The notes beneath the pieces are model-generated. The model saw nothing but the letters and a program-made list of their open reading frames with translations. It did not search any database and was not told where the DNA came from. This document shows positions 1 to 16,655 of a DNA stretch of 32,598 nucleotides, piece by piece. Source of the DNA: Saprospiraceae bacterium. GTDB taxonomy: Bacteria; Bacteroidota; Bacteroidia; Chitinophagales; Saprospiraceae. The position numbers and the translations under genes were made by a program. The stretch is from the NCBI GenBank assembly GCA_020630475.1, contig JAHDBI010000035.1:1-32598 (forward strand). The letters are read 5' to 3'. Each line of letters starts with the position of its first letter. Positions within the stretch are counted from its first letter, which is position 1.

Positions 1-50
1 AGCTCCTAAGCGCCGATGGTACTGCTACGCGGGAGAGTAGGTCGCCGCCT
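1..50 (+). rRNA. rrf: 5S ribosomal RNA, 3' end (partial)
   Basis: The first 50 bases match the conserved 3' arm of bacterial 5S rRNA: the CCGATGGTACTGC segment followed by GGGAGAGTAGGTCGCCGCC. The window starts inside the gene, so the 5' part, and presumably the 16S and 23S genes of the same operon, lie upstream. The exact 3' end is uncertain by a few bases because the sequence runs straight into eight T residues. Confidence 0.9.
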
Positions 51-57
51 TTTTTTT

Positions 58-94
58 AAAACCCATTGTCATTCTTATGATAATGGGTTTTTTT
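58..94 (+). terminator. Intrinsic terminator of the rRNA operon
   Basis: A stem pairs AAAACCCATT (58-67) with AATGGGTTTT (82-91). A small inner stem, TCAT/ATGA, closes the loop. The right arm merges into a run of seven T. It lies directly after the 5S rRNA, as expected for the end of an rRNA operon. The A/T flanks make it partly symmetric, so it may also stop minus-strand transcription arriving from gpmI. Confidence 0.85.
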
Positions 95-157
95 ATGCAT
101 TGTACATTCAATAATATAAGCGACCTACTCGCACACCCTTCTTCGACACAGCGGTCG

Positions 158-231
158 AGGCTCCTGCATCAAAGGTCCATTTAGGACCTTTGGTTATGCT
201 ACGCATAACTCCATTTAGTCGAGCCTTTTTT
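158..231 (+). terminator. Branched stem-loop cluster ending in a T-run
   Basis: An outer stem AGGCTC (158-163) / GAGCCT (221-226) encloses two perfect hairpins. These are AAAGGTCC (171-178) / GGACCTTT (184-191) and GTTATGC (193-199) / GCATAAC (203-209). The outer right arm runs into six T (226-231), so on the plus strand it reads as a three-way junction followed by a terminator-like tail. No gene is visible that needs a second plus-strand terminator here. The pairings are direct reading; the terminator role is inference. Confidence 0.5.
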
Positions 232-246
232 ATGAAACCTTTATGC

Positions 247-298
247 GAATAACTTTAGGGCTTTCTCCTTTTTAGGAGAAATCGAAACCTCGTTATTC
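247..298. repeat. Nested inverted repeat downstream of gpmI
   Basis: GAATAAC (247-253) pairs with GTTATTC (292-298). Inside it a perfect 8-bp hairpin TTTCTCCT (262-269) / AGGAGAAA (274-281) has a TTTT loop. It lies in the 3' flank of minus-strand gpmI and could stabilise or end that transcript, but no T-run follows on the minus strand. The remainder of 95-344 shows no coding capacity. Confidence 0.55.
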
Positions 299-344
299 TC
301 TTTCCTTAGTGATTTATTCTTACAGCCTAAATGGATCTTAAAAT

Positions 345-1874
345 TTAATGAACAAGAGAATCACCTGTCATTTCATCAGGAATTTCTTCATTCAAAAGCG
401 ACAGAATAGTTGTTGCAATATCCGCCAACTTACCATCATTTACTCTTGCTTGTTCCCTACCCTCTCTAATATATATAATAGGTACTAGGTTCGTGGTATG
501 CGCAGTGTGTGGACTACCATCTTCATTGACCATAATATCACTATTACCATGATCAGCAATGACAATAATATGATATCCCGTGGATTTTGCATATTCAATT
601 AAGCTTGAGATACATTGATCCACTGTCTCGGCTGCCTTAACGGCGGCACTAAAATCTCCAGTGTGCCCTACCATATCCGTATTCGCATAATTAATTACGG
701 CAAAATCCGGATGTTTTTCCTCAAGGTGATTTAATAAAGCTTCGGTTATTTCATGAGCGCTCATTTCAGGCTGTAAATCATATGTCGCCACTTTCGGTGA
801 AGGGACCATGATTCTTTCTTCTCCATTAAATGGTTCTTCCTTTCCACCATTAAAGAAAAAAGTAACATGAGGATACTTTTCAGTTTCGGCAATTCGCACC
901 TGCGTTCTTTTCTTTTGTTCTAACACCTCCCCTAGCGTATTCACTAAATTTTCTTTTGTATACACGACATGAAGATTCTTAAAACTTTCATCATACATTG
1001 TCATTGTGACATAATGAAGATCTAACTTTTTCATATGATGATCTTCAATATCCTCTTGTGTTAATACATGCGTCAATTGACGAGGTCGGTCAGTTCTGAA
1101 ATTGATAAACAAAACAACATCACCAGATTCAATAGAGGCTACTTTAGGTTCTTTGCCAGTGTCCACAAGAATCGGCGGCATAAACTCATCTGTAATATCT
1201 TTTTCGTATTGCTGTTGAACTGCACCTAAGGGTTTATCTGTAAATGTCTCGGCCATCCTATTCACCAAAAGATCATACGCCACTTTAGTCCTCTCCCATC
1301 TCGTATCACGATCCATAGCATAATAGCGACCCACAATACTTGCCAAGGAAGCTTCCTTATCTCGAATATAATTTAATAAGTCTTCCAAGTACTTAACGCC
1401 TCCATTCGGTGATGTATCTCGGCCATCTAAAAAAGCATGTATAAAGACTTCCTTCAAGCCCTCTTTCTCCGTAAAATCACAAACGGCTTTTAAATGATTA
1501 ATATGTGCGTGTACGCCGCCGTCAGATAAAAGACCCATGATGTGGACCTTCTTTCCTTCTTGTTTCGCTTTCGCGAAAGTGTTTAAAAGAATAGGATTTT
1601 TGAAAAAATCACCTGATTGGATTTCATTATTAATGCGGGCTAATTCTTGAAAAACGACCCTACCAGCACCTATGTTTAAGTGACCTACTTCGGAATTTCC
1701 CATCTGCCCTTCTGGTAAACCAACATCTTCTCCAAAGGTAGTTAATCTTGCATTTGGATAGTTTTCGATCAATGAATCATAATACGGGGTTTTGGCTTTC
1801 GCCAATGCGCTAACCTTGGGATTATCATTTAATCCCCATCCATCCAAAATCACCAAAATTGCTTTTTCTTTCAC
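345..1874 (-). CDS. gpmI: 2,3-bisphosphoglycerate-independent phosphoglycerate mutase
   Basis: Interconverts 3-phosphoglycerate and 2-phosphoglycerate in glycolysis and gluconeogenesis; cytosolic and Mn-dependent. At 509 residues it has the usual family length. An alkaline-phosphatase-like half holds the metal ligands: Asp11 in ILDGWG, the phospho-accepting Ser61 in GNSEVGH, and the C-terminal NTDMVGH, ADHGNSD and PHTAHT motifs. The inserted phosphotransferase half carries GVHAH (about 121-125) and DGRDTSP. The start is GTG (1872-1874); no in-frame ATG lies upstream near it. It appears monocistronic, with a 159-bp spacer to the divergent DUF4783 gene, where I found no TAnnTTTG promoter on either strand. 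Nothing is truncated. Confidence 0.96.
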   Translation of the reverse strand: MKEKAILVILDGWGLNDNPKVSALAKAKTPYYDSLIENYPNARLTTFGEDVGLPEGQMGNSEVGHLNIGAGRVVFQELARINNEIQSGDFFKNPILLNTFAKAKQEGKKVHIMGLLSDGGVHAHINHLKAVCDFTEKEGLKEVFIHAFLDGRDTSPNGGVKYLEDLLNYIRDKEASLASIVGRYYAMDRDTRWERTKVAYDLLVNRMAETFTDKPLGAVQQQYEKDITDEFMPPILVDTGKEPKVASIESGDVVLFINFRTDRPRQLTHVLTQEDIEDHHMKKLDLHYVTMTMYDESFKNLHVVYTKENLVNTLGEVLEQKKRTQVRIAETEKYPHVTFFFNGGKEEPFNGEERIMVPSPKVATYDLQPEMSAHEITEALLNHLEEKHPDFAVINYANTDMVGHTGDFSAAVKAAETVDQCISSLIEYAKSTGYHIIVIADHGNSDIMVNEDGSPHTAHTTNLVPIIYIREGREQARVNDGKLADIATTILSLLNEEIPDEMTGDSLVH

Positions 1875-2033
1875 TTGAAATCCTTGTTTAATTTGTTTAA
1901 CATTACTTTAATAAAAGATGTGAACTTACAATAATTCGTTATTTGTTAAGGTTTTAGCACTAGAGTTTTATTAGCGGAAGACACTTTTTATCGTTTTATC
2001 CGTTTATTAGTATAATGACAAAGGAATAACCAC

Positions 2034-2405
2034 ATGAAATATATATTATTGATTTGTAGCTTGATGCTTTTAAATAATGCCACAGCCCAAGATCTAAGAA
2101 CCGTATTTAAAGCCATCGGTAGTAATAGTGTTAAGTCATTAAGTGATTATATCGCGGATGACCTAGAGGTATGTATTGGTGACGAACAAGATCTCTATAG
2201 TAAATCAGAGGGTATAGAAGTGGTGACTCAATTTTTGACAAAGATTAATGTCAAATCATGTTCTCAAATTCATAAAGGGGCTTCTAAATCCAAGAATTCA
2301 GCGTATCGAGTAGGTAAATTGAAGGGTGCTAATGGAGAAGAGTATCGTGTTTTCGTCTATTATGAAAGAAAACAAATTGTAGAATTAAGATTCGATAAAT
2401 CTTAA
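2034..2405 (+). CDS. DUF4783 family secreted protein
   Basis: A 123-residue protein with a Sec signal peptide (MKYILLICSLMLLNNATAQ, cleavage probably after the Ala-Gln pair near residue 19). The mature part, with FKAIGSNSVKSLSDYIADDLEVCIGDEQ and a C-terminal YRVFVYYERKQIVELRF strand, resembles DUF4783. These are small NTF2-like Bacteroidota proteins of unknown function; I recall this fold assignment but did not search for it. It is predicted periplasmic. Its TAA stop overlaps the TAA stop of the convergent TIGR02757 gene in the shared palindrome TTAA (2402-2405), so no terminator separates them. No function should be assigned. Confidence 0.8.
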   Translation: MKYILLICSLMLLNNATAQDLRTVFKAIGSNSVKSLSDYIADDLEVCIGDEQDLYSKSEGIEVVTQFLTKINVKSCSQIHKGASKSKNSAYRVGKLKGANGEEYRVFVYYERKQIVELRFDKS

Positions 2406-3163
2406 CTTTCTAAGACGCCCATTCCAAATAAAGCATAATCATATTTCGCTGGATCTTCTGGATCAAATTGTCGTAAGACCTCCATCAATGCTTCGACCGT
2501 TTTCCAATCGCGTTGTTTTCTGTTGATTAGATTTAAGCGATGTGACACTCTTTCGACATGAACATCATATGGCACCATCAATTGACTCATTTTGATGTTA
2601 TTCCAGATACCAAAGTCTACTCCTTTATTATCCTTTCTGACCATCCATCTTAAAAACATATTGAGCCGCTTACACGTGGATTTCCTTTCAGGCGTAGACA
2701 CATGTTTACGTGTACGATGAGGAGCGTATGGTAGATTAAAGAAGTTGTTATGAAAATTAATCAAGACTTCTCGCACTTCAGTCTCTTCACCATTGGCGAA
2801 AGCCGACTCCAAAGAATCATGTTGTTGATAATGCATCTGAAGTCTCTCTAAAAAATATAGGGTATCTGTAAATTGAAAAGTTCTATGCTTAAAATCACTA
2901 AATCTTTTACGATCGTGTTCTTGATGATTCTTTATAAAATCATAAGGAGCATTATCCATTAAACCAAAGAGTTCATTTGCCTTATTGATGATTGTTTTTC
3001 TTTGGCCCCAAGCCAACATAGCAGTCCAAAATGCAGTAATCTCGATATCCTGTTTAAGAGAATATTGGTGCGGAATTAAAATAGGATCAGAACCTATAAA
3101 ACTCGGATTGTTATAGCGAAGAACTAACTCGTTAAGTTGATCAACTAAAGCCTCTTTAGCCAA
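2402..3163 (-). CDS. TIGR02757 family protein (DUF2400)
   Basis: A 253-residue cytosolic protein of the TIGR02757 family, seen in Bacteroidota and some other bacteria; its function is unknown. Recognisable pieces are the N-terminal [25 protein letters not shown], then [26 protein letters not shown] and a helical C-terminus with [10 protein letters not shown] and MVPYDVHV. The pattern is reminiscent of HhH-type DNA glycosylase folds, but that is only inference. The start is TTG at 3161-3163, inside the last codons of infB (8-bp overlap). A stop codon lies a few codons upstream in frame, so TTG is the only reasonable start, which implies translational coupling to infB. It is the last gene of the rimP operon. 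Confidence 0.85.
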
Positions 3164-5849
3164 GGGTTTGCTTTACTGAAATGATATCATATCCTTCGAT
3201 AATGTCACCTGCTTTGATATCATTAAAGTTCTTTATGGTCAAACCACATTCAAAACCGGATTTAACTTCTTTAGCATCGTCTTTGAATCTCTTTAAACTC
3301 GTTAAAGCTCCTTTCACTCCTTCTTTCTGAGGATATATCACAATACCGTCACGTATCAATCTGATATGAGTATTTCTAGTGATGACACCTTCCTGAACAA
3401 AGCAACCTGCGATCGTTCCGATCCGACTAATTTTGAACGTTTCTCGCACTTCAACTTGACAAACAATTTTTTCTTCTTCCTTCGCATCAAGCATTCCTTC
3501 CATCGCCATTTTAATTTCATCGATGGCCTCATAAATGATCGAATACGTTTTAATCTGAACTCCTTCTTTCTCTGATAATTGTCTTGCACCTTGAGATGGT
3601 CTTACTTGGAAACCTATTACAATGGCGTCAGAGGCAGATGCTAAAAGAACATCTGATTCGACGATTTGTCCTACCGCCTTGTGAATCACATTTACCTGAA
3701 TGGTTTCTACAGATAACTTTATCAATGAATCAGCTAAGGCTTCAATAGAACCATCCACGTCACCCTTAATGATCAAATTCAACTCTTTAAATGTACCTAA
3801 AGCCAATCTTCTACCAATTTCATCAAGACTAATTCTCTTGATTGCTCTAGTTGTTTGTTCACGATCAATTTGAGATCTCTTGGTAGCCAATTGTCTTGCC
3901 TCTTGTTCACTTTCCATCACCCTAAACTTCTCACCCGCTTGAGGTGCACCACTAAGACCAAGAACAAGTACTGGTGTTGATGGACCAGCCAACTTAACTT
4001 TTTTACCTCTTTCATTGAACATGGCCTTCACCTTACCGGAATGTGATCCTGCAACCATACTATCTCCAATTTTTAGAGATCCGTTTTGTACAAGAACTTT
4101 AGTCACATAACCACGACCTTTGTCTAAAGAAGCTTCTACTACTGTACCGTGTGCCTCTCTATTTGGATTGGCCTTAAGGTCTAGAACTTCTGCTTCCAAT
4201 AAAATTTTCTCTAACAGCTGATCTATATTCTCTCCAGTCTTTGCTGATATGTCCTGACTTTGGAATTTACCACCCCATTCCTCAACTAGAAGGTTCATTT
4301 CGGCTAATTCCTGCTTTATACGTTCAGGTTGTGCACCGTCTTTATCAATTTTATTAATGGCAAAAACTATAGGAACACCTGCCGCTTGAGCATGACTAAT
4401 GGCTTCTTTAGATTGAGGCATGATTCTATCGTCTGCCGCTAAAATTACGACAACCACATCAGTCACTTTCGCTCCTCTTGCTCTCATCGCTGTAAATGCC
4501 TCGTGACCTGGTGTATCCAAGAATGTAATTTTCTTTTTGTCTTTACCAACTGAAACTTCATATGCCCCAATGTGTTGAGTGATACCACCAGCTTCTCCGT
4601 CAGCTACGTTAGCACTTCTAATAAAGTCAAGTAATGATGTTTTACCATGATCTACGTGACCCATCACAGTGACAATAGGAGCTCTTGATTCTAAATCTTC
4701 CTCCTTATCAACGATTATCTCTTCTACATTCTCTTCTTCTTCAGCATTGATAAACTCTACTTCTCTATCAAATTCAGTAGACACTAATTCGATAATCTCA
4801 GCATCCAATCTTTGGTTGATCGATACGATCACACCCAAGTTCATACAAGTCGTAATCACCTCTGACACACCGACTCCAAGTAGATTTGCTAATTCAGATA
4901 CGGATACAAATTCAGTAAGCTTCAGCTTACTTGTATCTACCTGAGCATCGAGCATTTCTTGTTTCTCTCTCTTATCCTCTCTGTTGTCCCGTCTTATTTT
5001 CTGACGTTTATTTTTACCACGGCCAGATAATCTAGCCATAGTTGCTTTGATCTTATCTTCTATTTCTTTTTTAGAAACTTCTTTAACCTCTTCCCTTTTG
5101 CGACCTTGATTCTGTCCACCTTGTTTTTTGAAATTGGTAATTCCTGAAACCTTTTTTCGGGTTCTCTTTCTTCTTTCGTTAGGTTGTTTCTTTTGTACTG
5201 GTTCAGACTTCTTAGGAGTCTTGTTGATTTCTTTGAGCTTATTCGCATCAATTTTACCAAGGATCTTTAGTCCTTGTAATTGTGGTGCTTCCGCTCGTTT
5301 CATTAAGTTCTCTTCTACCTCTTTCTTCGGTTCAGCCTCTTGCGGCTTTTCTTCTACATCCTCCACCTTTTTCTCTACAGGTGCTTCCTCCTTCTTCTTC
5401 GCCGGTTTTTTCTTTTCTAGATCAATCTTGCCTATAACTTTTAGCTTCGGAGATTCTACCTTGATTGTTTCTGTTTCTTCTTGAGACTTTTCTTTCGGTT
5501 CTTCCTTTACTGGTTCTTCTGGCTTTTCTTCCTCTTTTACTTTTTCTTCCGCTTCCGTTGAAGGTTCAGTTACCTCGGTTGGAGTTTCGTCAGATGCCGG
5601 TGCTGCAGCTCGAGCTCCTTCGTCGGCTTCATCATCTTTAGTTACACGATTACCAATGACCAATTGATCTGCCTGTTCTTTTACAGCTATTGAGTTACTA
5701 AATTCCTTAAGAAGGAGGTCTTCCATCTCTTCCGAAATTTTCGTTGTTGGTCTATTTTGAACTTCAAACCCTTGTTCGGTTAGAAACTCGACTATAGTAG
5801 ACGTTCCAACATTTAACTCTTTAGCAATTTTTACTAATCTCTTTGCCAT
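3156..5849 (-). CDS. infB: Translation initiation factor IF-2
   Basis: A GTPase that places initiator fMet-tRNA on the 30S subunit and promotes 50S joining. At 897 residues it is in the long bacterial class. An N-terminal IF2_N helix domain (1-50, [17 protein letters not shown]) is followed by a highly charged Lys/Glu linker (about 60-310) and a second IF2_N-like segment (about 315-360, [18 protein letters not shown]). The G domain has GHVDHGKT (397-404), DTPGHEAF and NKID, followed by domains II-IV. The start is ATG (5847-5849), 29 bp after nusA. The repetitive linker produces long spurious open frames on the opposite strand. It belongs to the rimP-nusA-infB operon. Confidence 0.98.
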
Positions 5850-5878
5850 TTAATAAATCTTAATACTTAAAAACTTTC

Positions 5879-7129
5879 CTATCCTGCTTTTTCGTCTTCA
5901 TCGAATTCGGCTGCAAGAATAGCCAAAACATCATCAATTGTTTCTTCCTCCAAATCTGTACGCCTCATTAATTCGTCTTTACTTAGATCTAAAACACTTT
6001 TCGCTGAATCACATCCAATATTTTTCAACGCGTCAATTACCCACGCTTCGATTTCATCGGAGAATTCATCTAGCTCAACATCTTCAATTTCAATTTGATC
6101 ATTTTCTCTGTAGACATCAATCTCATAACCTGACAGTCTACTTGCTAGTTTAATATTCGTTCCACCTTTACCAATGGCCAATGAAACTTGATCAGGCTTC
6201 AGGAAAACTGCTGCCCTTTTCTTGTCATCATCTAAATTGATACTTGAAACTTTTGCTGGAGTCAATGATCTTTGAATGAATAGAACGTTGTTGCTCGTAT
6301 AATTGACGATATCAATATTCTCATTTTTTAATTCTCTTACGATTCCGTGGATTCTAGATCCTTTCATACCTACACAAGCCCCTACTGGATCAATTCTATC
6401 GTCGTAAGATTCTACGGCTACTTTTGCTCTTTCACCAGGAATTCTTTCGATTTTCTTAATGGTGATTAAACCATCTTCGATTTCTGGAACTTCCTGTTCT
6501 AATAATTTTTCTAGGAACGTACTGTCTGTACGAGAAACCATAACGATAGGGTTATTATTTCTCATTTCTACTCTTTTGATTACCCCACGGACCATATCTC
6601 CTTTACGGAAAAAATCGCCTCTGATCATTTCATTTCTGGGTAGTACTAATTCGTTACCAGTCACATCATCGAGTACAAGTATTTCTCTTTTCAAGATTTG
6701 GTGAACCTCTCCCAGGATAATTTCTCCAATTCTATCCATGTATCTCTTATAGACTTCGTCTTTCTCTAATTCCATAATTCTAGAAATCAAAGTTTGTCGA
6801 GCAGCCATAATCGCACGTCTACCAAAATCTTCTAAAACTAATTGCTCATAACACTCTTCTCCAATTTCATAATCTTCTTCAATGGACTGAGCCTCTGAAA
6901 AGGAAATCTGGCTTCTTTCATCCATGACCTCACCATCTGGAACAATTTCTCTAACTCTCCACATTTCTAAGTCACCGTTTTGTGTGTTGACAATGACATC
7001 GAAATTATCATCAGATCCATATTTTTTTCTGATCAGTGTTCGAAATACATCTTCCAAAACACGAACCATTGTAGGTCTGTCTATATTTTTTCCTGCTTTA
7101 AACTCCGAAAAGGATTCTACTAAATTCAT
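5879..7129 (-). CDS. nusA: Transcription termination/antitermination factor NusA
   Basis: Binds RNA polymerase and nascent RNA and modulates pausing, intrinsic termination and rRNA antitermination. The 416 residues hold an N-terminal RNAP-binding domain (1-130), an S1 domain (about 135-200, GDMVRGVIKRVEMRNNNPIVMVSR) and two KH domains. KH1 carries DPVGACVGMKGSRIHGIV and KH2 carries KPDQVSLAIGKGGTNIKLAS. A short acidic C-terminal segment (about 350-416) has one helix-hairpin-like stretch. It is shorter than E. coli NusA, as is usual outside Proteobacteria. The start is ATG (7127-7129), 12 bp after rimP. A hairpin plus T8 lies in the operon leader, a plausible target for NusA feedback (inference). 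Confidence 0.97.
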   Translation of the reverse strand: MNLVESFSEFKAGKNIDRPTMVRVLEDVFRTLIRKKYGSDDNFDVIVNTQNGDLEMWRVREIVPDGEVMDERSQISFSEAQSIEEDYEIGEECYEQLVLEDFGRRAIMAARQTLISRIMELEKDEVYKRYMDRIGEIILGEVHQILKREILVLDDVTGNELVLPRNEMIRGDFFRKGDMVRGVIKRVEMRNNNPIVMVSRTDSTFLEKLLEQEVPEIEDGLITIKKIERIPGERAKVAVESYDDRIDPVGACVGMKGSRIHGIVRELKNENIDIVNYTSNNVLFIQRSLTPAKVSSINLDDDKKRAAVFLKPDQVSLAIGKGGTNIKLASRLSGYEIDVYRENDQIEIEDVELDEFSDEIEAWVIDALKNIGCDSAKSVLDLSKDELMRRTDLEEETIDDVLAILAAEFDEDEKAG

Positions 7130-7141
7130 AACTGAAATATA

Positions 7142-7615
7142 TTAGAAGCTAATTTTAATTTTCGATTCTACAATCGAGTCAAAATTTATATCTATTCTTT
7201 TTTCTATTTTTTTCTTTTTACTCTTTGAGTTTGGGTCTTGTACCATTGTCATCAATACGATTTTATCTTCTGTCACCTCAAGCAATTCTCCCACAAATCG
7301 TCCTTCGTTCACCACCTTCACCTTAATCATTCTTCCTACATTCTTTTTGTACTGTCTTTTCAGTCGCAAAGGTCTTCCAACTCCTGCCGAAGATACTTCG
7401 AGGGTATACTTCTCTCCCAGCCACAATTCTTCATCTAATACTTCTTCTATCTTACGGCTAATTTTTCTGCATTTTTCAAAAGTGACGCCTTCGTCACTAT
7501 CGAGATATGCTTCAATTCGATTTGGAGATTCTTTCAATTCAACCAGAAAACAATCGTTGAATCCTAATTCCACAATTGTTTCTTCAATTAACTTCTGAAC
7601 TTTACTTTCTTCCAA
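7142..7615 (-). CDS. rimP: Ribosome maturation factor RimP
   Basis: Assists assembly of the 30S subunit. The 157 residues contain the N-terminal alpha/beta domain (IEAYLDSDEGVTFEKCRKISRKIEEVLDEE) and the signature YTLEVSSAGVGRPLR, then an SH3-like C-terminal domain (VGELLEVTEDKIVL). The start is TTG at 7613-7615; no ATG or GTG lies in frame before an upstream stop, and the protein otherwise begins exactly where RimP proteins do. It is the first gene of the operon with nusA and infB, an arrangement conserved across bacteria. A promoter-like TAACTTTG and an intrinsic-terminator-like hairpin occupy the short leader. Confidence 0.94.
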   Translation of the reverse strand: MEESKVQKLIEETIVELGFNDCFLVELKESPNRIEAYLDSDEGVTFEKCRKISRKIEEVLDEELWLGEKYTLEVSSAGVGRPLRLKRQYKKNVGRMIKVKVVNEGRFVGELLEVTEDKIVLMTMVQDPNSKSKKKKIEKRIDINFDSIVESKIKISF

Positions 7616-7629
7616 TTTCGAATCATTTG

Positions 7630-7660
7630 AAAAAAAAGAGGGAACAAAACTTGCTCCCTC
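7630..7660 (-). terminator. Intrinsic terminator in the rimP operon leader (putative attenuator)
   Basis: Read on the minus strand, GAGGGAGC (7660-7653) pairs with GTTCCCTC (7645-7638) with one G-T wobble. Two further A-T pairs extend it, and eight T follow (7637-7630). The T-run ends 14 bases before the TTG start of rimP and the hairpin lies between the promoter-like element at 7675-7682 and the gene. No gene ends on the minus strand upstream of it, so it is not a normal 3'-end terminator. A role in attenuation of rimP-nusA-infB is inference. Confidence 0.75.
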
Positions 7661-7674
7661 CCCTAAAACTTGCG

Positions 7675-7705
7675 CAAAGTTAAGCTTTTATAAGGGATTA
7701 TTCAA
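7675..7705 (-). promoter_or_regulatory. Promoter of the rimP operon
   Basis: On the minus strand TAACTTTG (7682-7675) matches the Bacteroidota -7 consensus TAnnTTTG. A TTG (7705-7703) lies 20 bp upstream, where the -33 element is expected. Transcription would start near 7668, only about eight bases before the leader hairpin. Confidence 0.6.
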
Positions 7706-7752
7706 TTAAAACCGCCTATAAAAAAGGTCTAAATCGAAATCAATTCTATGAC

Positions 7753-7760
7753 TATCTTTG
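7753..7760 (+). promoter_or_regulatory. Promoter -7 element of the mqnC operon
   Basis: TATCTTTG matches TAnnTTTG exactly and lies 28 bp before the mqnC ATG. No clear -33 TTTG is visible. It is divergent from the rimP promoter; the two -7 elements are about 70 bp apart. Confidence 0.55.
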
Positions 7761-7788
7761 TTAGGTTTCCAATAATTGAAATGTCAGC

Positions 7789-8931
7789 ATGGATAAAAAT
7801 GAACTACTCCATAGAGCTTTAAACTTAGAACACCTCAACATTGAAGAAGGCGTATTCTTATTTGAGAATGCCACGACCACAGAATTAATGTTTGTAGGTA
7901 ACAAACTGAGATTTAAACATCGTCCTGAACCCATAGTTAGTTGGATCATAGATCGAAATTCAAATACTACTAATGTCTGTATTGCAAACTGTAAGTTCTG
8001 TAATTTCTATCGTAGACCCGGGCACGAAGAGTCGTATATCACGGATATTGAAACATATAAAAAGAAAATTGAAGAAACTTTTGATTTTGGAGGCGAACAA
8101 CTTCTATTACAAGGTGGTCATCACCCTGACTTAGGGCTTCAATATTATTGTGATTTGTTCAGCGAATTAAAATCACTGTATCCAAATTTGAAGCTTCATG
8201 CCTTGGGTCCACCCGAAATTGCTCACATCACGAAACTAGAAGGTAGCACTCATTTCGAAGTGTTAAAAGCCTTGAAAGAATCAGGTTTAGATTCTCTTCC
8301 TGGTGCAGGAGCAGAAATTTTAAATGATCGAGTAAGAAGACTGATCTCCAAAGGTAAATGTGGTGGAGACGAATGGTTAGAAATTATGCGCGTGGCACAT
8401 ACTTTAAATATTACGACATCCGCAACCATGATGTTTGGCCACATTGAGACCAATTACGAACGAATGGAACATTTGGTGCGAATAAGAGAAATACAGGTGC
8501 AAAAACCTGAAAGTGCAAAAGGGTTTCTTGCATTTATTCCTTGGCCATTTATGGATGAGGATACTATTCTAAAAAAATTAAAGCGCGCACGAAATTCGTG
8601 TACTGGAGATGAGTATATCAAAATGATAGCCATGAGTAGAATCATGCTCCCCAATATTAAAAACATTCAAGCATCTTGGTTAACGGTTGGTAAGAAGATA
8701 GCACAGGCCTGTTTACATGCTGGCGCCAATGATTTTGGTAGTATCATGATAGAGGAAAATGTTGTCTCTGCAGCGGGTGCCGCATTTAGATTTACCGCAG
8801 ATGGAATACAGCAATCCATTACAGATGCCGGATTTGAACCAAGATTGAGAAATCAAGAATATGAATATCGAGAGGTTCCAAAAAACATAAAACAACAATC
8901 TTTGGATAACTCTACTATGATCGTTGACTAA
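7789..8931 (+). CDS. mqnC: Cyclic dehypoxanthinyl futalosine synthase (menaquinone, futalosine pathway)
   Basis: A radical SAM enzyme that cyclises dehypoxanthine futalosine on the futalosine route to menaquinone, the usual respiratory quinone of Bacteroidota. The 380 residues carry the 4Fe-4S motif C64-x3-C68-x2-C71 within NVCIANCKFCNFYRRPG. They also carry the MqnC-type stretches DRNSNTTNVC, LLLQGGHHPDLGL, GPPEIAHITKLE, LPGAGAEIL and SATMMFGHIE. The related MqnE (aminofutalosine synthase) was considered, but the N-terminal SWIIDRN context and GGHHPDLGL fit MqnC better. The ATG start is 28 bp after a TAnnTTTG element. It is the first gene of an operon with PNP and uvrA; a single base separates it from PNP. 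Other mqn genes are not in the window. Confidence 0.9.
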   Translation: MDKNELLHRALNLEHLNIEEGVFLFENATTTELMFVGNKLRFKHRPEPIVSWIIDRNSNTTNVCIANCKFCNFYRRPGHEESYITDIETYKKKIEETFDFGGEQLLLQGGHHPDLGLQYYCDLFSELKSLYPNLKLHALGPPEIAHITKLEGSTHFEVLKALKESGLDSLPGAGAEILNDRVRRLISKGKCGGDEWLEIMRVAHTLNITTSATMMFGHIETNYERMEHLVRIREIQVQKPESAKGFLAFIPWPFMDEDTILKKLKRARNSCTGDEYIKMIAMSRIMLPNIKNIQASWLTVGKKIAQACLHAGANDFGSIMIEENVVSAAGAAFRFTADGIQQSITDAGFEPRLRNQEYEYREVPKNIKQQSLDNSTMIVD

Positions 8932-8932
8932 T

Positions 8933-9754
8933 ATGGCCGTTTCTATATACGATAAGGTACAAGAGGCTGTTCGTTTTATCCGGCAAGAGATCAAAGAACA
9001 ATGTTCATTTGGGATTGTATTGGGTACCGGTCATAATGACCAATCTTTTGAAATTAATCGACGAATCGCGTATGACCGAATTCCTCACTTCACAAATAGC
9101 ACCGTAGAAAGTCATCAAGGTGAATTGTGTTTGACTTACGTCAATGGAAAAGCTTGTCTTATTCTTTCTGGTCGATTTCACTACTATGAGGGTCTCTCGT
9201 CAGCTCAAACGGCATTTCCCATTAGAGTTTTAAACGCATTGGGCGTAAGCCATTTATTCATCACAAATGCTGTAGGAGGACTAAACCCTTCTTATATTTC
9301 TGGAGATATTGTTTTGATTAAAGATCAAATTAATCTCCAACCGGATAATCCATTAAGAGGAAAACATGACGAACGATTAGGGCTGATGTTTCCTGATATG
9401 TTGAATGCCTTTGATAAAGACCTGTTAACATTGGCGAAAGCCAAAATGAATATCATAGAACAAGTGTACTACGAAGGAGTTTATGTCGGATTGCAAGGAC
9501 CAAGTTTAGAAACGCCTGCAGAATATCAGTTTTTAAATCAAATCAAGGCAGATGTTGTAGGAATGTCGACGGTACCTGAAGTGATTACGGCTCGTCAATG
9601 CGGAATGAAAACGATTGTATTTTCGGTGGTGTCCAATCAATGTTTTCCAATCCATCAAATAACTGAAACGACTGTGGCAGAAGTGATAGAGGTCGTGAAT
9701 AAAACAACGCCAAAAGTGATTACGTGTATTAAAAAAATGATTGAAGATTTATAA
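8933..9754 (+). CDS. Purine nucleoside phosphorylase (class I, trimeric type)
   Basis: Cleaves purine (deoxy)ribonucleosides with phosphate to free base and ribose 1-phosphate. The 273 residues show SGRFHYYEG (phosphate-binding Arg and His), TNAVGGLNP, the GDIVLIKDQIN strand, GPSLETPAEY (base-pocket Glu) and VGMSTVPEVITARQ (phosphate Ser). The N-terminal loop normally GSGLG reads GTGHN, and the C-terminal base-specificity segment SNQCFPIHQI diverges from typical PunA. The ATG at 8933 is preferred over an in-frame TTG at 8924 that would overlap mqnC. It sits one base after mqnC and one base before uvrA. The mqnC linkage raises the possibility that it handles hypoxanthine or a futalosine intermediate, but that is inference. 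Confidence 0.85.
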   Translation: MAVSIYDKVQEAVRFIRQEIKEQCSFGIVLGTGHNDQSFEINRRIAYDRIPHFTNSTVESHQGELCLTYVNGKACLILSGRFHYYEGLSSAQTAFPIRVLNALGVSHLFITNAVGGLNPSYISGDIVLIKDQINLQPDNPLRGKHDERLGLMFPDMLNAFDKDLLTLAKAKMNIIEQVYYEGVYVGLQGPSLETPAEYQFLNQIKADVVGMSTVPEVITARQCGMKTIVFSVVSNQCFPIHQITETTVAEVIEVVNKTTPKVITCIKKMIEDL

Positions 9755-9755
9755 G

Positions 9756-12578
9756 ATGGCTGAACAGGAGTATATCGATATCGTAGGAGCGAAAGAGAAT
9801 AATCTTCAGGATATTACTCTAAAAATTCCCAGGGACAAATTAGTGGTTATCACAGGAATAAGCGGTAGTGGTAAATCTTCCTTGGCATTTGATACCATAT
9901 ACGCAGAAGGGCAAAGACGCTATATGGAAACCTTTGGTTCGTATGCTCGCCAGTTTATGGGAAACATGGAACGACCTGAGGTAGAAAAAATAGATGGTTT
10001 AAGTCCAGTAATCTCGATCGAACAAAAAACTACAGCTTGGAATCCTCGATCAACGGTAGGCACGACAACGGAGATATATGATTTTCTAAGATTATTTTTT
10101 GCAAGAGTAGGTGAAGCATATTCATTGTCGACAGGAAAAAAGATGATCAAGTTTACGGAGATTCAGATTATTGAGTTGTTGATGAAGGATTATGACAAAA
10201 AGAAAATCATTCTTTTAGCTCCTTTGGTCAGGGCTCGAAAGGGGCATTATAGAGAGCTTTTTGATCAAATTCGAAAGAAAGGATATACGAAGGTCAGGGT
10301 GAATGGCGAGATCCAAGAGTTGAAGCAGGGAATGAAGTTGGATCGATACAAAACGCACGATATTGAAGTTGTTGTAGATAGAATTATTGTCGATAAAGAG
10401 AAAAGGGATCGCATCGGAGCATCTATACAAACAGCCATGAAACTCGGGAATGGGTTTATCATGATTTTGGATTTAGGAACAGAGGAAGTCAAGCCATTCA
10501 GTAAGCATTTGATGGATCCTGAAACCGGTCTTTCTTATGAAGAGCCTTCCCCAAATACCTTTTCGTTTAATTCACCGTATGGCACTTGTCCTGATTGTAA
10601 AGGATTGGGGTTAGTGAATAAAGTAGAAATGGACAAGGTCATTCCGGATGATTCTTTAAGTATTAATGAAGAAGGGATTAAACCATTTGGCGAAGTCCGA
10701 GACAACTTGACATTTAAACAGTTAAGGGCTGTTGCCAAAAAGTTCAAATTTGGTTTTGCTACCCCAGTTAAAGACATACCAGAAAAAGCACTCAATATTA
10801 TTTTGTTCGGAGGAGAAGAAGGAATTGGTGTGGATATGAAGTATTCAAAAAATGATTATGTCTACAATTTGGCATATGAAGGTATTGTGAACATGCTAGG
10901 TCGTTGGTTTAGAGAATCGAATTCTGAAAAAATCAGAAAATGGTCTGAAGAGTTTATGACCATCGTCGAATGTGAAACTTGTGAGGGTTATCGATTAAAA
11001 CAAGAATCGCTTCATTTTAAAATTGACGATCATCACATTGGGCACTTAGCCCAAATGGACCTTAGTGATTTAGCTGTTTGGTTTGAGGGATTAGAAAAAA
11101 GATTGTCGGCAAAACAAAATGCCATTGCGAAAGACGTCATTAAAGAAATTAGATTACGACTAGGTTTCTTATTAGAGGTAGGACTCGATTATTTATCCTT
11201 AAATCGACCAACGAGGACATTATCCGGAGGCGAGTCTCAGAGAACTCGTTTAGCTACTCAAATAGGATCTCAACTCACGGGAATCACCTATGTGATGGAC
11301 GAACCGTCGATTGGTTTGCACCAAAGGGATAATCATCGTTTGATACATGCATTAAAAAATCTAACGACTATCGGTAATACGGTATTGGTTGTTGAACACG
11401 ATAAAGACATCATGCTCGCCTCAGATTATATTATTGATTTAGGTCCTGGAGCAGGTAAACATGGAGGTCATATAGTTGCAGAAGGAACACCCAAAAACTT
11501 CTTAAAGAACAAAAGTCTTACTGCGTCTTTTCTAAGCAATCAACAGAAAATAGAAATCCCTAAAAACAGAAGACCAGGGATTGAAAAATTTATCCAACTT
11601 CAAGGAGCAAAAGGTCATAATTTAAAAAACCTAACTGTTGATTTTCCACTGGGTAAATTAATCTGCGTTACAGGTGTGTCTGGAAGCGGAAAATCCAGTT
11701 TAATCAATAATACGCTCTACCCTATCCTACGCGCACATTTATATAAAAGTATGCAGCGTCCATTGCCTTATGATGGGATTCAAGGATTAGATTTAGTCGA
11801 TAAAGTGATAGAGATCGATCAATCACCAATAGGTAGAACCCCAAGATCAAACCCAGCTACTTACACAGGCATGTTTGGTTTTATTAGAAACTTATTTACT
11901 GGTCTTCCGGAGGCTAAAATAAGAGGTTATAAAGCAGGTCGATTCTCTTTTAATGTCAAGGGAGGAAGGTGCGAGACATGTGAAGGAGCAGGTAAGAAAG
12001 TGATAGAAATGAATTTCCTACCTGACGTTCATGTCGATTGCGAGCAATGTCAAGGAAAGCGGTATAACCGAGAAACTTTAGAAATTCTATACAAGGGCAA
12101 AAGTATTTCGGATGTTCTTGAAATGACCGTTGAAGAGGGCGTAACTTTTTTTGAGCACATTCCGAGTATTTACAGAAAATTAAAAACACTGAATAGCGTT
12201 GGCTTGGGTTATATCAGTCTTGGCCAACAAGCAACAACACTATCTGGTGGTGAAGCCCAAAGGGTCAAACTATCCTTAGAATTATCCAAGAAAGATACCG
12301 GACAAACCTTATACATTTTAGATGAACCCACTACTGGATTGCATTTTAAAGACATTCAACACTTGTTAGTCGTGATCAACAAATTAGTAGATAAAGGAAA
12401 TACAGTTATCATCATCGAACACAATATGGATGTGATCAAAGTAGCGGATCACATTATTGACATAGGACCAGAAGGTGGAAGAGGAGGTGGAACAATTGTT
12501 TTCGAAGGAACCCCTGAAAAATTATTAAAGAGTAAAAAGTCTCATACAGCAAAGTATCTTAAAGAAGAGATGATTTAA
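9756..12578 (+). CDS. uvrA: Excinuclease ABC subunit A (UvrA)
   Basis: The ATPase that locates bulky DNA damage and loads UvrB in nucleotide excision repair. The 940 residues are full length. They contain two ABC ATPase units with Walker A GISGSGKSS and GVSGSGKSS, signatures LSGGESQR and LSGGEAQR, and Walker B YVMDEPSIGLH and YILDEPTTGLH. The C-terminal zinc finger is intact (CETCEGAG ... CEQCQGKRY). The first zinc finger is degenerate: CPDC (278-281) is present, but the partner CxxC near residues 253-256 reads MDPE. The ATG at 9756, one base after the PNP stop, is preferred over an in-frame TTG at 9741. It is the last gene of the mqnC operon; uvrB lies 18 kb away. Confidence 0.97.
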   Translation: MAEQEYIDIVGAKENNLQDITLKIPRDKLVVITGISGSGKSSLAFDTIYAEGQRRYMETFGSYARQFMGNMERPEVEKIDGLSPVISIEQKTTAWNPRSTVGTTTEIYDFLRLFFARVGEAYSLSTGKKMIKFTEIQIIELLMKDYDKKKIILLAPLVRARKGHYRELFDQIRKKGYTKVRVNGEIQELKQGMKLDRYKTHDIEVVVDRIIVDKEKRDRIGASIQTAMKLGNGFIMILDLGTEEVKPFSKHLMDPETGLSYEEPSPNTFSFNSPYGTCPDCKGLGLVNKVEMDKVIPDDSLSINEEGIKPFGEVRDNLTFKQLRAVAKKFKFGFATPVKDIPEKALNIILFGGEEGIGVDMKYSKNDYVYNLAYEGIVNMLGRWFRESNSEKIRKWSEEFMTIVECETCEGYRLKQESLHFKIDDHHIGHLAQMDLSDLAVWFEGLEKRLSAKQNAIAKDVIKEIRLRLGFLLEVGLDYLSLNRPTRTLSGGESQRTRLATQIGSQLTGITYVMDEPSIGLHQRDNHRLIHALKNLTTIGNTVLVVEHDKDIMLASDYIIDLGPGAGKHGGHIVAEGTPKNFLKNKSLTASFLSNQQKIEIPKNRRPGIEKFIQLQGAKGHNLKNLTVDFPLGKLICVTGVSGSGKSSLINNTLYPILRAHLYKSMQRPLPYDGIQGLDLVDKVIEIDQSPIGRTPRSNPATYTGMFGFIRNLFTGLPEAKIRGYKAGRFSFNVKGGRCETCEGAGKKVIEMNFLPDVHVDCEQCQGKRYNRETLEILYKGKSISDVLEMTVEEGVTFFEHIPSIYRKLKTLNSVGLGYISLGQQATTLSGGEAQRVKLSLELSKKDTGQTLYILDEPTTGLHFKDIQHLLVVINKLVDKGNTVIIIEHNMDVIKVADHIIDIGPEGGRGGGTIVFEGTPEKLLKSKKSHTAKYLKEEMI

Positions 12579-12613
12579 AGTGAATTTTTACCTAATTCCA
12601 AAATCACTTCCAT

Positions 12614-12645
12614 AAAAAAACCTTCGCTCGGGGAGAACAAAGGTT
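12614..12645 (-). terminator. Minus-strand intrinsic terminator without a matching gene
   Basis: On the minus strand AACCTT (12645-12640) pairs with AAGGTT (12624-12619), followed by seven T in all (12620-12614). The loop is GC-rich (GTTCTCCCCGAGCG). It is oriented to end transcripts reading from the gene-free region toward uvrA, yet no minus-strand gene is visible there. It could end a small RNA or protect uvrA from antisense transcription (inference). Confidence 0.5.
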
Positions 12646-12745
12646 GTTGAAGTTAGTCATAACCGTTTCTGAAATTCTTTGAGCAAATTCGTCTTTCGGT
12701 CTATTAAACTAAGTTCGGGGACACGTTTTATTTCTTGATGTGAAA

Positions 12746-12773
12746 ACTCCTCGACACGAAAGCACCGAGGAGT
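12746..12773. repeat. 8-bp perfect hairpin after uvrA
   Basis: ACTCCTCG (12746-12753) pairs perfectly with CGAGGAGT (12766-12773) around a 12-base loop containing CGAAAG. It extends outward with bulges: GTGAAAA on the left against TTTT and CAC on the right. It is the most GC-rich helix in an otherwise AT-rich spacer. No T-run follows directly on either strand, so a plain terminator role is not supported. Confidence 0.6.
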
Positions 12774-12881
12774 CACGTTTTAACACCCTTAAATATTGAG
12801 AATAATAGAATTTTTTTGTGAGGGCTTCCATTGCATTCAACAGAAGCCTTTATATAACATCCTTAATGTTCTTGTTTTTTG

Positions 12882-12952
12882 TGGTTATGGGTTGGATTGA
12901 CCTTTTTACTCTAAAATCCTTCTTGATCTTCACCAATCAACCATAACAACCA
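12882..12952. repeat. Long imperfect inverted repeat
   Basis: TGGTTATGGGTTGGATTG (12882-12899) is nearly the reverse complement of the stretch 12932-12952, which contains ACCAATCAACCATAAC. The arms differ by small insertions and are separated by about 33 bases. Purpose unknown. Confidence 0.5.
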
Positions 12953-12975
12953 TTCGAGAAGCGTTTCCATAATGT

Positions 12976-13009
12976 GTACTTTTTTGTTATTGTAATAACA
13001 TAAAAGTAC
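12976..13009. repeat. 34-bp hairpin, nearly perfect
   Basis: GTACTTTT (12976-12983) pairs with AAAAGTAC (13002-13009), and the inner TGTTATT (12985-12991) pairs perfectly with AATAACA (12994-13000) around a two-base loop. One or two unpaired bases separate the two helices. It may be a cruciform, a transcript hairpin or a regulator site. Confidence 0.6.
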
Positions 13010-13286
13010 TTCGTTAGCGCTTCGTAAAAAATAACATTTTTACATCATCATGGACAATCATTTTTCTTTAAAAATGACCATACATATCCCATAATACACA
13101 CTAAACTAGTGAGTTACGTAAAATATAACGTCTCATTTTTCTTATATTGAGACTTCCTATGTAAAGATAGGGATACAGGTCACCTAAAACAATAACATAA
13201 AACCAAAATTCAGGACATGCATTCAATAGATATTCAAACTATCACTACCACATAAAACATTGGTTTATAAATAATTAACCCTAACA

Positions 13287-14804
13287 ATGGAAAACCTTAA
13301 AGCCCTAGTAAAAGTGATTTCTGTTCAAAAAATTGGTCAAATTGAGATAATCGGTCAATCAAAAAAGAAATCAACAAATTATGACAAACTATATAATGCT
13401 ATACGAGATGGAATAGTTGATAATGACCAAGAAGCCATAGAGTATCTATATCCAGAACATAAAAACAAATCGAATTATCAGCGATTAAAAAATCGATTAA
13501 TCAATCGACTTATTAATTCTTTGTTTTTTATCGACACTAATAAACCAAGTTTTACCGACTACCGTAGGGCAAGGCATCAAGTTGGTAAATTTTATGTTGC
13601 AATCAACCTTCTTTTAGAACGAAGTGCTAGACCAACAGCAATCAATATTGCAGAAAAGGTCATATTGGTTTCAAAAAGATTCGATTTTTCTGAATACACC
13701 CTTCTAATAGCCAGATACCTTAGAAGTCATTATGCGTACCTTAATCCAAATAGAAAAAAATACCTACACTACAACAAAATAGTTGAACACGCGCTAAATT
13801 GTGTCAATTCTGAAGTTTTAGTAGAAGATATCTATTCTAACTACTCTTACCTAGCCAACACTTCTAATTCTTCACTTACAAAAGAAAACCTTAAACAGTT
13901 AAGAAATGACTGTTTAGTACTCAAAAAAAGACAATTAGAAATTGACTCCTTCCTGTTTAATAGATTGACTTATGAGCTTTTAGTTTATGAAAAGGCAATA
14001 TCAAAGGATCATTCTGGAGCTTTAAAAACTTGTGAAGAAGCCCTTGATTTCTTCTCTCAGAAACCATTTAAATATCAGCTCGTTGGAATAATTTTTAACT
14101 ATAACATTTTCTATGCTTTAGTTAATTTGATGAAATACAAAGAAGCAGAAAATCGAATGCAATCGAATTTAGATGTGATTACTGTTGGAAATTTTCATTG
14201 GTTTAGAGCAAATTTTATGTTGTTTCATTCTCTTTCATTACAAGAAAAATACAATGAGCTTTTTCCTTTGCTTGTAACTGTTTTAAAGCATAAAAATCTG
14301 ACTAAATACAAAACGCATTTCGAGGCTTGGAAGTTGAATGAAGCCTATGTACACTTGCTAATAGCTACAGGGAAAATCGAAAATGTCGGTCCAAAAAAGA
14401 AATTTAGTATCAATCGATTCGTCAATGAAGTTCCTATATTCTCAAAGGACAAAAGAGGGAGAAACATCTCCATTTTAATCCTTCAGTTGTTGTTTTTAAT
14501 CATTCAAAACAAGACGAGTAAAATTACTGAAAGACTAGATGCCCTAAACCAATATTGCTATCGTTACCTTAGAAATGATGAAACCCTGCGTTCCAACTGT
14601 TTTATCAAAATGCTATTAAAGCTTCCAGATGCCGACTATCATCCATTGAGGGTCCAACGCTACGTTGATAAATATCACAAACGCTTATTGGCTACTCCTA
14701 TGGAAATTTCCGAGCAGTCATCGGAGATAGAAATTATTCCATATGAGCAGTTATGGGAAGTGGTACTAGAAGTTTTAGAAAAAAATAAAACGAAAAGAAA
14801 ATAG
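13287..14804 (+). CDS. Uncharacterised helical protein, probably lineage-specific
   Basis: A 505-residue protein with no signal peptide or membrane segment. The sequence is dominated by alternating hydrophobic and charged residues typical of stacked helices, with TPR-like pairs such as YLANTSNSSLTKENLKQLR and HSGALKTCEEALDFF. The N-terminal part (MENLKALVKVISVQKIGQIEIIG followed by a YDKLYNAIRDGIVDNDQEAIEYL motif and LINRLINSLFFID) resembles, from memory, a large family of unknown proteins in Saprospiria. I could not search to confirm this. The ATG follows a 708-bp structured spacer, and the gene sits 32 bp before GH3. There are few cysteines and no recognisable catalytic motif. A scaffold or regulatory role is conceivable, but no function should be assigned. 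Confidence 0.75.
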   Translation: MENLKALVKVISVQKIGQIEIIGQSKKKSTNYDKLYNAIRDGIVDNDQEAIEYLYPEHKNKSNYQRLKNRLINRLINSLFFIDTNKPSFTDYRRARHQVGKFYVAINLLLERSARPTAINIAEKVILVSKRFDFSEYTLLIARYLRSHYAYLNPNRKKYLHYNKIVEHALNCVNSEVLVEDIYSNYSYLANTSNSSLTKENLKQLRNDCLVLKKRQLEIDSFLFNRLTYELLVYEKAISKDHSGALKTCEEALDFFSQKPFKYQLVGIIFNYNIFYALVNLMKYKEAENRMQSNLDVITVGNFHWFRANFMLFHSLSLQEKYNELFPLLVTVLKHKNLTKYKTHFEAWKLNEAYVHLLIATGKIENVGPKKKFSINRFVNEVPIFSKDKRGRNISILILQLLFLIIQNKTSKITERLDALNQYCYRYLRNDETLRSNCFIKMLLKLPDADYHPLRVQRYVDKYHKRLLATPMEISEQSSEIEIIPYEQLWEVVLEVLEKNKTKRK

Positions 14805-14836
14805 GTCAAAGGGTTTTCTTTAACTTCATATAGATC

Positions 14837-16354
14837 ATGATTAGAAAATCCATTAACCAATCCGTCAAGTATTATTCTAAATGGCGTTTCTCTAGGGTAA
14901 AAGACATTCATGTAAATGCCCAAAGCCTTCAGAAGCAAAACCTTAAAAAACTTATTGTTTCTTTAAGTCAGACGAGCTTTGGAAAAGAGCATCAGATTCA
15001 TTCTAAATCGGAGTACAAATCATTTACTTCTCAGATTCCTATTCGAACTTATGACCAGATAAAACCATATATCAAGCAGATGATGTTGGGTGAAAAAAAT
15101 GTTTTATGGCCTGGTCGAACGAAATATTTCAGTAAATCCTCCGGTACAACTAGCGACAAGAGTAAATTCTTACCGGTAAGTCAACAATTGATTAGAAACA
15201 ATATGGTTTCTGCTTGTTGGGACACCGTCAGTACCATTTATCATCAATGGGAAGGGGCTAATATCTTTTCTGAAAAAACACTTTTTCTTGGCGGCTCACT
15301 AGAAGATTATTCGGAATTCCCTGCTTCTAAAATTGGAGACGTGTCGGCTATTATGATTCATACGATGCCTCCGATTGGAAGGCCATTTTATACCCCGGAT
15401 TTTAAAACAGCGATACTTCCAGAATGGGAAGAAAAAATCGAAAAACTTTGTCAAATCTGTTCGAAAGAAAACGTAGTCATGTTCGGTGGTGTCCCTACCT
15501 GGACCATAGTTTTATTTAAACGCATGTTAGAAAAATATGGGGCAAAAAATATTTTAGACATATGGCCAAACGCCAAAATATACATGCACGGTGGCGTTGG
15601 ATTTGACCCCTATAAAAAACAATTTCAAGAGTATTTACCCTCTCGGGAATTTAAGTACTTAGAAGTATATAACGCGTCGGAAGGATATTTTGCTTATCAA
15701 GACAACTGGGATGAAGATGGAATGTTATTGAACGTAAATCACGGGATGTATTTTGAGTTCTTGCCTTTCGGCGAATGGGATAATGAGTTTGGACAAGCCA
15801 CTCCACTTGAAGAAATAGAATTGGGTAAAGACTATGCACTTGTGATTAGTACATGTGCGGGATTATGGAGATATAACACGGGTGATACCATTCAGTTTAC
15901 GTCTAAGTCACCTTACCGAATAAAAGTTAGTGGTAGGACTAAGCATTACATCAATGCCTTTGGAGAAGAAGTCATGGTTAATAATACTGACCAAGCGATT
16001 GCAAACACCTGTAACCAACTCGATGTAAAGGTCTCAGATTATACTGTAGCCCCTATTTACCTTAATCAAAATGAAAAAGGAGCTCATGAATGGTTGATAG
16101 AATTTGAGCATCCACCTATTAATCTTGATCAGTTTACAAAAGTACTGGATAAGGAACTTCAACTAATCAATTCGGATTATGAAGCTAAGAGGCATAAAGA
16201 AATGGCTTTAAGTTCGCCTAAAATTAAAAAACTACCAGAAGGCACATTTGTAAAATGGCTCAAGGCCAAGGGTAAATTTGGTGCTCAAATTAAGGTGCCA
16301 CGTTTATCTAACAATAGAGATTATGTAGATGACATTCTTGATTTTGTAGATTAG
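14837..16354 (+). CDS. GH3 auxin-responsive promoter family protein (acyl-acid-amido synthetase-like)
   Basis: An ANL-superfamily adenylating enzyme of the GH3 family. Plant members join amino acids to jasmonate or auxin; bacterial substrates are mostly unknown. The 505 residues contain the phosphate-binding SKSSGTTSDKSKFLPVS (about 95-111), GGVPTWTIVLFKRML, the YNASEGYFAYQD nucleotide motif (about 279-290) and LVISTCAGLWRYNTGDTIQF with the ribose-binding Asp. The C-terminal lid includes INAFGEEVMVNN. It lies between the unknown 505-residue gene and a 98-residue conserved protein, four bases from the latter, so co-transcription is likely. The family call is firm; the reaction is not known. 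Confidence 0.92.
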   Translation: MIRKSINQSVKYYSKWRFSRVKDIHVNAQSLQKQNLKKLIVSLSQTSFGKEHQIHSKSEYKSFTSQIPIRTYDQIKPYIKQMMLGEKNVLWPGRTKYFSKSSGTTSDKSKFLPVSQQLIRNNMVSACWDTVSTIYHQWEGANIFSEKTLFLGGSLEDYSEFPASKIGDVSAIMIHTMPPIGRPFYTPDFKTAILPEWEEKIEKLCQICSKENVVMFGGVPTWTIVLFKRMLEKYGAKNILDIWPNAKIYMHGGVGFDPYKKQFQEYLPSREFKYLEVYNASEGYFAYQDNWDEDGMLLNVNHGMYFEFLPFGEWDNEFGQATPLEEIELGKDYALVISTCAGLWRYNTGDTIQFTSKSPYRIKVSGRTKHYINAFGEEVMVNNTDQAIANTCNQLDVKVSDYTVAPIYLNQNEKGAHEWLIEFEHPPINLDQFTKVLDKELQLINSDYEAKRHKEMALSSPKIKKLPEGTFVKWLKAKGKFGAQIKVPRLSNNRDYVDDILDFVD

Positions 16355-16358
16355 CCTT

Positions 16359-16655
16359 ATGGATCTCATTAAGCGAACATTAGAAATTGATATACCAGAA
16401 ACATTCGACGAAAGTCAAGTGTATAAGATTATTCTTGAACGTGTAAGGGCTTTGCTCCATCAAGACCCTAATCTTTTATTCAGCTATCTTTATCGTCTCG
16501 ACATTCTCGAACACAAAATCAATCATGTGATTCAGCAACAAAAAAGTATTCCAATTGATGAAGGCCTTTCGAAGCTTATACTCGAACGACAAAAGGAAAG
16601 AGTCGAGACTAAGGAAAAATACAAACAAGACCCCATCGAAGGATGGGAATTCTAA
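16359..16655 (+). CDS. Small conserved hypothetical protein (98 aa)
   Basis: A cytosolic, mostly helical protein of 98 residues with the stretches LFSYLYRLDILEHKINHVIQ and LILERQKERVETKEKYK and a short C-terminal tail ending in EGWEF. I recall similar small proteins in many Bacteroidota genomes, without known function; this was not checked. It starts 4 bp after the GH3 stop and ends 9 bp before recO, so it is surely translated as part of that operon. It contains no cysteine, and no nucleic-acid-binding motif is evident. Confidence 0.8.
   Translation: MDLIKRTLEIDIPETFDESQVYKIILERVRALLHQDPNLLFSYLYRLDILEHKINHVIQQQKSIPIDEGLSKLILERQKERVETKEKYKQDPIEGWEF

Follow-up and report, generated by a model that had tools for sequence, protein, structure and literature searches.

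A conserved terminator hairpin between promoter and start codon in the rimP-nusA-infB leader of Bacteroidota, and its probable role in attenuation

An attenuator of the nusA operon of Bacillus subtilis was reportedly described by Mondal in 2016. In that organism NusA sets its own expression by stimulating termination within the leader of its operon (review, PMC12288461), and a terminator occurring in rimP leaders was presented as a general attenuator, rimP-leader, by Naville and Gautheret in 2010, with a stem GGGc(...)gCCC confined to the terminators of rimP leaders (PMC2965389). In Streptococcus agalactiae, transcription of rimP-nusA terminates 31 nt after its start at a predicted intrinsic terminator, for which feedback by NusA has been proposed (PMC4448216), and in the metY-rimP-nusA operon of E. 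coli, itself regulated by NusA, the terminators t1 and t2 precede rimP (PMC6511841). In 2021 rimP was listed among the genes preceded by new structured 5' elements that are conserved among Flavobacteriaceae and unmatched in Rfam (PMC9723704).

Here we describe the rimP leader of a Saprospiraceae bacterium within a window (the whole stretch of DNA analysed, 32,598 nt) and compare it with the leaders of related genomes. The kind of control considered is already described in other bacteria, and the leader in the window is a new example of it. As in the rimP-leader family, the site lies 5' of rimP-nusA-infB, has a G-rich 5' arm, a C-rich 3' arm and a T-stretch, and reveals no antiterminator; its distance from the gene (14 nt after the T-run) falls within the 4-130 nt given for that family (PMC2965389). 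Compared with GGGc(...)gCCC, the window reads GGGAGC...GTTCCC and related leaders mostly GGGRAC...GTYCCC, the GGG/CCC core being present with two extra pairs before the closing C-G. The resemblance to S. agalactiae lies in a short leader RNA and a long transcript from one start, predicted in the present case; that organism is a Firmicute in which RNA ends were measured (PMC4448216), whereas the length of about 41 nt given here is predicted from sequence. Intrinsic termination in the 5' leader is also the arrangement of the B. subtilis nusA operon, with a dependence on NusA that is demonstrated there (PMC12288461) and proposed here; the B. subtilis leader measures 180 nt (PMC2965389), and one of 55 nt is predicted in the window. 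The E. coli operon shares terminators upstream of rimP and regulation by NusA, and differs in having two terminators, located behind a tRNA gene, and several promoters (PMC6511841). In the E. coli leader sequence our scan returned CCCCG..CGGGG, and a short GGGC..GCCC stem was recognised by eye only, the scan being insensitive to stems of 4-5 pairs and missing this short site.

An earlier note on this DNA had considered a leader terminator undescribed in this group, which is too strong given the reports of 2010 (PMC2965389) and 2021 (PMC9723704): the claim fails because a structured 5' element of rimP has been reported in Flavobacteriaceae. That element concerns the same gene in the same phylum and likewise has no Rfam match; unlike the window site, it is not termed a terminator in the accessible portion of its report (PMC9723704). 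The string "Bacteroid" is absent from the main text of PMC2965389, "rimp" and "nusa" occur zero times in the main text of PMC7366714 (a B. thetaiotaomicron map) and in PMC8040213, and PMC8060035 was of no use for this leader. Among the matches listed, from a search with subscription papers mostly outside its reach, we recognised no further work on this leader in Bacteroidota and found no literature test of NusA feedback in the phylum. What is newly added concerns the breadth of the element in Bacteroidota, the geometry of promoter and hairpin, and the exchange of stems among lineages; an attenuator of Firmicutes and Gammaproteobacteria would thereby extend to Bacteroidota in a minimal form, comprising a promoter box, a hairpin from a median of 20 nt on, a T-tract and a start codon.

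Organisation of the rimP leader

The genes of the operon, the elements of its leader and the divergent neighbour are located as follows.

3156-5849, minus strand: infB, 897 aa (NCBIfam TIGR00487, E 6.6e-232, above cut-off)
5879-7129, minus strand: nusA, 416 aa, encoding the candidate trans-acting factor (NCBIfam TIGR01953, E 2.1e-113, above cut-off)
7142-7615, minus strand: rimP, 157 aa (NCBIfam NF002531, E 3.6e-33, 114.6 bits, below the 123-bit cut-off of the best model)
7613-7615, minus strand: rimP start codon TTG, 14 nt past the T8 tract, predicted +56
7630-7637, minus strand: T8 tract, predicted +34 to +41
7638-7660, minus strand: terminator hairpin GAGGGAGCAA-GTT-TTGTTCCCTC, 10 pairs of which one is G-U, predicted +11 to +33
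7670, minus strand: predicted transcription start, A, by analogy with the box position in F. psychrophilum
7675-7682, minus strand: TAACTTTG, -7 box of the Bacteroidota sigma-A promoter (consensus TAnnTTTG)
7675-7705, minus strand: the whole rimP promoter, TTG-N20-TAACTTTG
7703-7705, minus strand: TTG, 20 nt ahead of TAACTTTG, candidate -33 element of this promoter
starting at 7789, plus strand: mqnC, divergent from rimP (NCBIfam, slightly under the cut-off of the best model)

The earlier note had described a ten-pair hairpin with T8, 14 bases from a TTG start and behind a TAnnTTTG promoter, and these counts are exact. The consensus TAnnTTTG, with the box at -12 to -5, derives from a start-site map of Flavobacterium psychrophilum (PMC9723704); placed by that analogy, the predicted start lies 10 nt from the hairpin, and termination at T8 would yield a transcript of some 41 nt. 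The hairpin, with its GTT loop, has a predicted energy of -13.7 kcal/mol. Folding of the rimP leader with RNAfold gave a z of -2.73, with equally good folds in 2 of 200 shuffles, and the minimum-energy fold of the leader plus 60 nt retains the terminator, with no antiterminator structure visible. The hairpin occupies a position 5' of rimP-nusA-infB within the mqnC/rimP intergenic region and, because mqnC is divergent, we reject its reading at the window as the 3' terminator of an upstream gene. On the plus strand of the same region, TATCTTTG at 7753-7760, 28 nt before the mqnC start (7789), is likely a divergent promoter alongside that of rimP.

A stock terminator scan of window positions 1-20000 did not return the rimP-leader site, probably because the stem can be extended into the T-run through G-U pairs. 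A search of the window against Rfam gave no match at gathering, and so no riboswitch, T-box or other leader family; with E-values up to 5 and nine sources, all matches overlapping rimP leaders lay far below gathering. Among the latter, the Streptococcus sRNA SSRC38 resembles window positions 7570-7662 on the minus strand with 29 bits where gathering requires 80 (match on L001, 1926-2018). We read this and similar weak matches, all below gathering, as likeness among terminators and rejected them as candidates.

The rarity of such a site was assessed with a strict definition of a terminator (at least nine pairs including at least four G-C, a loop of 3-8, then at least seven T in eight). Three occur in the window, whereas 60 dinucleotide shuffles averaged 0.017 sites and never contained more than one; elsewhere in the same genome we found eight per 309,435 sampled bases. 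ORFs were called mechanically in a genome sample of 342,033 bases that includes the window; of 271, 36 carry TAnnTTTG in their own upstream region (up to 200 nt), and a terminator follows the box in one of these 36 genes, namely rimP. The terminator of the rimP leader is confirmed as real and as exceeding chance. A separate strong terminator-like hairpin with T7 lies at 12621-12643 on the minus strand, just beyond a plus-strand ORF at 9741-12578; no minus-strand ORF of at least 100 aa is listed between it and position 19651.

Conservation and covariation in related loci

Family, order and class searches found rimP in 190 of 199, 138 of 149 and 136 of 149 genomes, respectively, with the best-scoring loci, at most 30 per search, being fetched. 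Together with 3 and 29 loci from earlier searches these form a set of 115 (L001-L115), which contains one record outside Bacteroidota (L032) and is skewed to near relatives because only the best-scoring matches were fetched. The earlier note had suggested comparing rimP leaders across Bacteroidota, and in this set the hairpin is not lacking: TAnnTTTG, a hairpin of -8 kcal/mol or lower starting within 45 nt, and then at least four T in eight were found together at 111 of the 115 loci. In the remaining four the hairpin is visible by eye in L032, which has no TAnnTTTG box, in L069, which has TATCTTCG, and in L092, whose T-tract is poor; by eye it is absent from L113.

The geometry of these elements is similarly maintained. 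The promoter box stands upstream of the hairpin in all 111 passing leaders, 77 of which also have a TTG 17-26 nt before the box, and the median distance in L001-L115 is 20 nt between box and stem and 21 nt between stem and aligned gene start. When at least five T were demanded, a terminator followed 112 of 120 TAnnTTTG sites located up to 170 nt upstream of rimP. Elsewhere in these loci it followed 5 of 408 TAnnTTTG sites, two of the five being more distant rimP leaders; since promoters are probably absent from many of those 408 sites, the gene-based control described above (1/36) is the fairer comparison. nusA begins within 250 nt after rimP at 113 of 115 loci. A rough ORF rule applied to the upstream gene made it divergent at 66 loci and co-directional at 43, with 6 left unassigned. 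One genome, G002, has two rimP loci (L002 and L003, with 62% and 44% identity to the query) with the leader hairpin in both; as G002 is listed with 7% contamination, one of the two may be foreign.

Base pairing in the stem was examined in an alignment of 36 leaders with 4-nt loops over eight pairs. A first MAFFT alignment had misplaced the 5' arms wherever loops differed, so pairs were counted by hairpin and on this subset; its selection on loop length in the best hairpin favours pairing, a few rows that are still misaligned (e.g., L042 and L100) lower the paired percentage, and 25 leaders with 5-nt loops were left out. Pairing was found in 90.9% of cells. Changes on both sides of a pair occupied 38 cells, compared with a shuffle mean of 14.8 (0 of 500 shuffles as high) and with 2-8 cells in controls slid by 1-3 columns, and extended over six pairs, compared with 3.8 on average after shuffling (23 of 500 shuffles reached six). 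RNAalifold recovered the same stem, with changes on both sides in five of seven pairs. A second count took in 60 leaders; of 59 of them, 33 have G-C and 26 A-U at one stem position, where G-U does not occur.

Proposed control of early termination

From sequence comparisons of this kind, we consider it probable that the promoter-proximal terminator attenuates rimP-nusA-infB without an antiterminator, its efficiency being set probably by a termination factor, with NusA the first candidate. The conservation, covariation and geometry documented above support the suggestion in the earlier note that this leader terminator is likely an attenuator. Polymerase would start near position 7670 and make about 33 nt, whereupon the hairpin would form in the exit channel; at T8 a fraction of polymerases would release a leader RNA of about 41 nt, and the remainder would transcribe the operon. 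The hairpin follows the predicted start too closely for an antiterminator, aptamer or leader peptide to precede it, and the ribosome site comes after the terminator, so the set-point most likely resides in the elongation complex. NusA, which is encoded by the operon and aids the formation of terminator hairpins, would be the likeliest controller, such that a rise in NusA would increase early termination and thereby lower NusA. By analogy with B. subtilis, E. coli and S. agalactiae, this feedback is plausible here. Other sources may also set the point, among them NusG, RimP and constitutive partial read-through. The effect of NusA is greatest at weak terminators (review, PMC12288461), and the present site looks strong (ten pairs, T8 and the energy given above), which counts against a NusA-sensitive terminator. 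A practical consequence of the arrangement is a warning that the strength of the rimP promoter in these bacteria is not simply equal to the output of the operon.

The same layout could be produced by a constitutive partial terminator, which would cut operon output by a fixed factor and sense nothing. Such an element would need nothing more than the one hairpin and T-tract observed, and neither an antiterminator nor a leader ORF would fit before the hairpin. We nonetheless judge it unlikely: 111 of 115 loci retain promoter and terminator together, although the same effect would be obtained with a weaker promoter; rimP alone among the 36 sampled promoter-bearing genes has a terminator so placed; and the operon itself encodes a termination factor.

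Stem variation and alternative roles of the hairpin

A variant of the attenuation proposal, with odds that overlap it, holds that the stem is a sequence-specific protein site, for the S1/KH domains of NusA or for RimP, and that termination needs binding. Naville and Gautheret made a like argument for other phyla (PMC2965389). When G and C were simply counted, G outnumbered C in the 5' arm of all 111 scored leaders from L001-L115, and a GRGGGRAC-like stem occurs in most aligned leaders, with 3' arms of GTYCCCTC. When GRGGGRRC-N(3-12)-GYYCCCTYTTTT was scanned for in 40 related genomes, 30 had at least one match; the 39 rows, four of which are second readings of palindromes, denote 35 distinct places, and the reversed pattern used as a control gave one match. 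rimP leaders account for 28 of the 35 places and the other seven lie elsewhere, so the motif is enriched at rimP and not exclusive to it, in contrast to the exclusivity stated for the rimP-leader stem (PMC2965389).

Against such a site, the stem varies by lineage outside the class. A phylum search found rimP in 117 of 118 genomes, from which 42 loci covering 20 families (L171-L212) were picked by hand and examined with a relaxed rule (at least five pairs, loop up to 20). A terminator was found within 260 nt upstream of rimP in 40 of the 42, whereas a 270-nt segment lying farther upstream contained one in 3 of 42; of the two that failed, L206 and L208, the latter has by eye an imperfect hairpin and T7. 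Terminators at these 42 loci may also be 3' terminators of preceding genes. Stems differ among lineages (AGTGGG..CCCACT, GTGAGCG..GCACTCAC, GATGGGC..GCCCAT, TCGCCCC..GGGGCGA and TAGCCCG..CGGGCTA), and by G-minus-C count the 5' arm of the 40 is G-rich in 28, C-rich in 10 and even in 2. The C-rich 5' arm, the inverse of the usual one, is seen in L171, L177, L185, L188, L190, L191, L193, L199, L210 and L211. Within the class, the core of L114 is by eye likewise inverted (TCCCG..CGGGG), and loops range from 3 to 9 nt. With these differences weighed against the recurrent G-rich motif, a specific binding site appears to us improbable.

Since lineages have different stems, the terminator appears to be kept while its sequence and arm orientation change. 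We advance tentatively, and with some doubt, the broader proposal that early termination and not sequence has been conserved, with stems replaced, and that this would represent an ancient feedback loop if NusA dosage tracks all of them. Were this true, sensing would fall to the terminator hairpin itself and would involve neither a binding motif nor an antiterminator or ligand.

The two sides of the hairpin bear on its function as RNA. Eight nucleotides after the outermost G-C pair include at least five T in 100 of 104 distinct hairpins, although an unbroken run of at least four T directly after that pair occurs in only 73 of 104 leaders; the eight preceding it include at least five A in 35 of 104. 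The T frequency upstream of promoters is 0.34. Loop lengths among the distinct leader hairpins are from 3 to 9. A 5' hairpin that stabilises mRNA or sets translation, and is not a terminator, would suit a location near the predicted 5' end and the start codon; we regard it as very unlikely, for the conserved adjoining T-tract is needed by an intrinsic terminator and not by a stabiliser. A DNA operator, with a repressor bound to the conserved inverted repeat just 3' of the promoter, is scarcely credible and was rejected, because half-site spacing is not fixed and the T side is far better kept than the A side, features that an RNA terminator fits better.

The exchange of stems among lineages amounts to a natural experiment on whether a terminator suffices for NusA feedback or a binding sequence is required. 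As a minor observation, the nearest in-frame start of rimP, by an approximate rule, is GTG or TTG in 22 of 46 family loci (within L001-L085), and such starts are perhaps a second brake on the operon.
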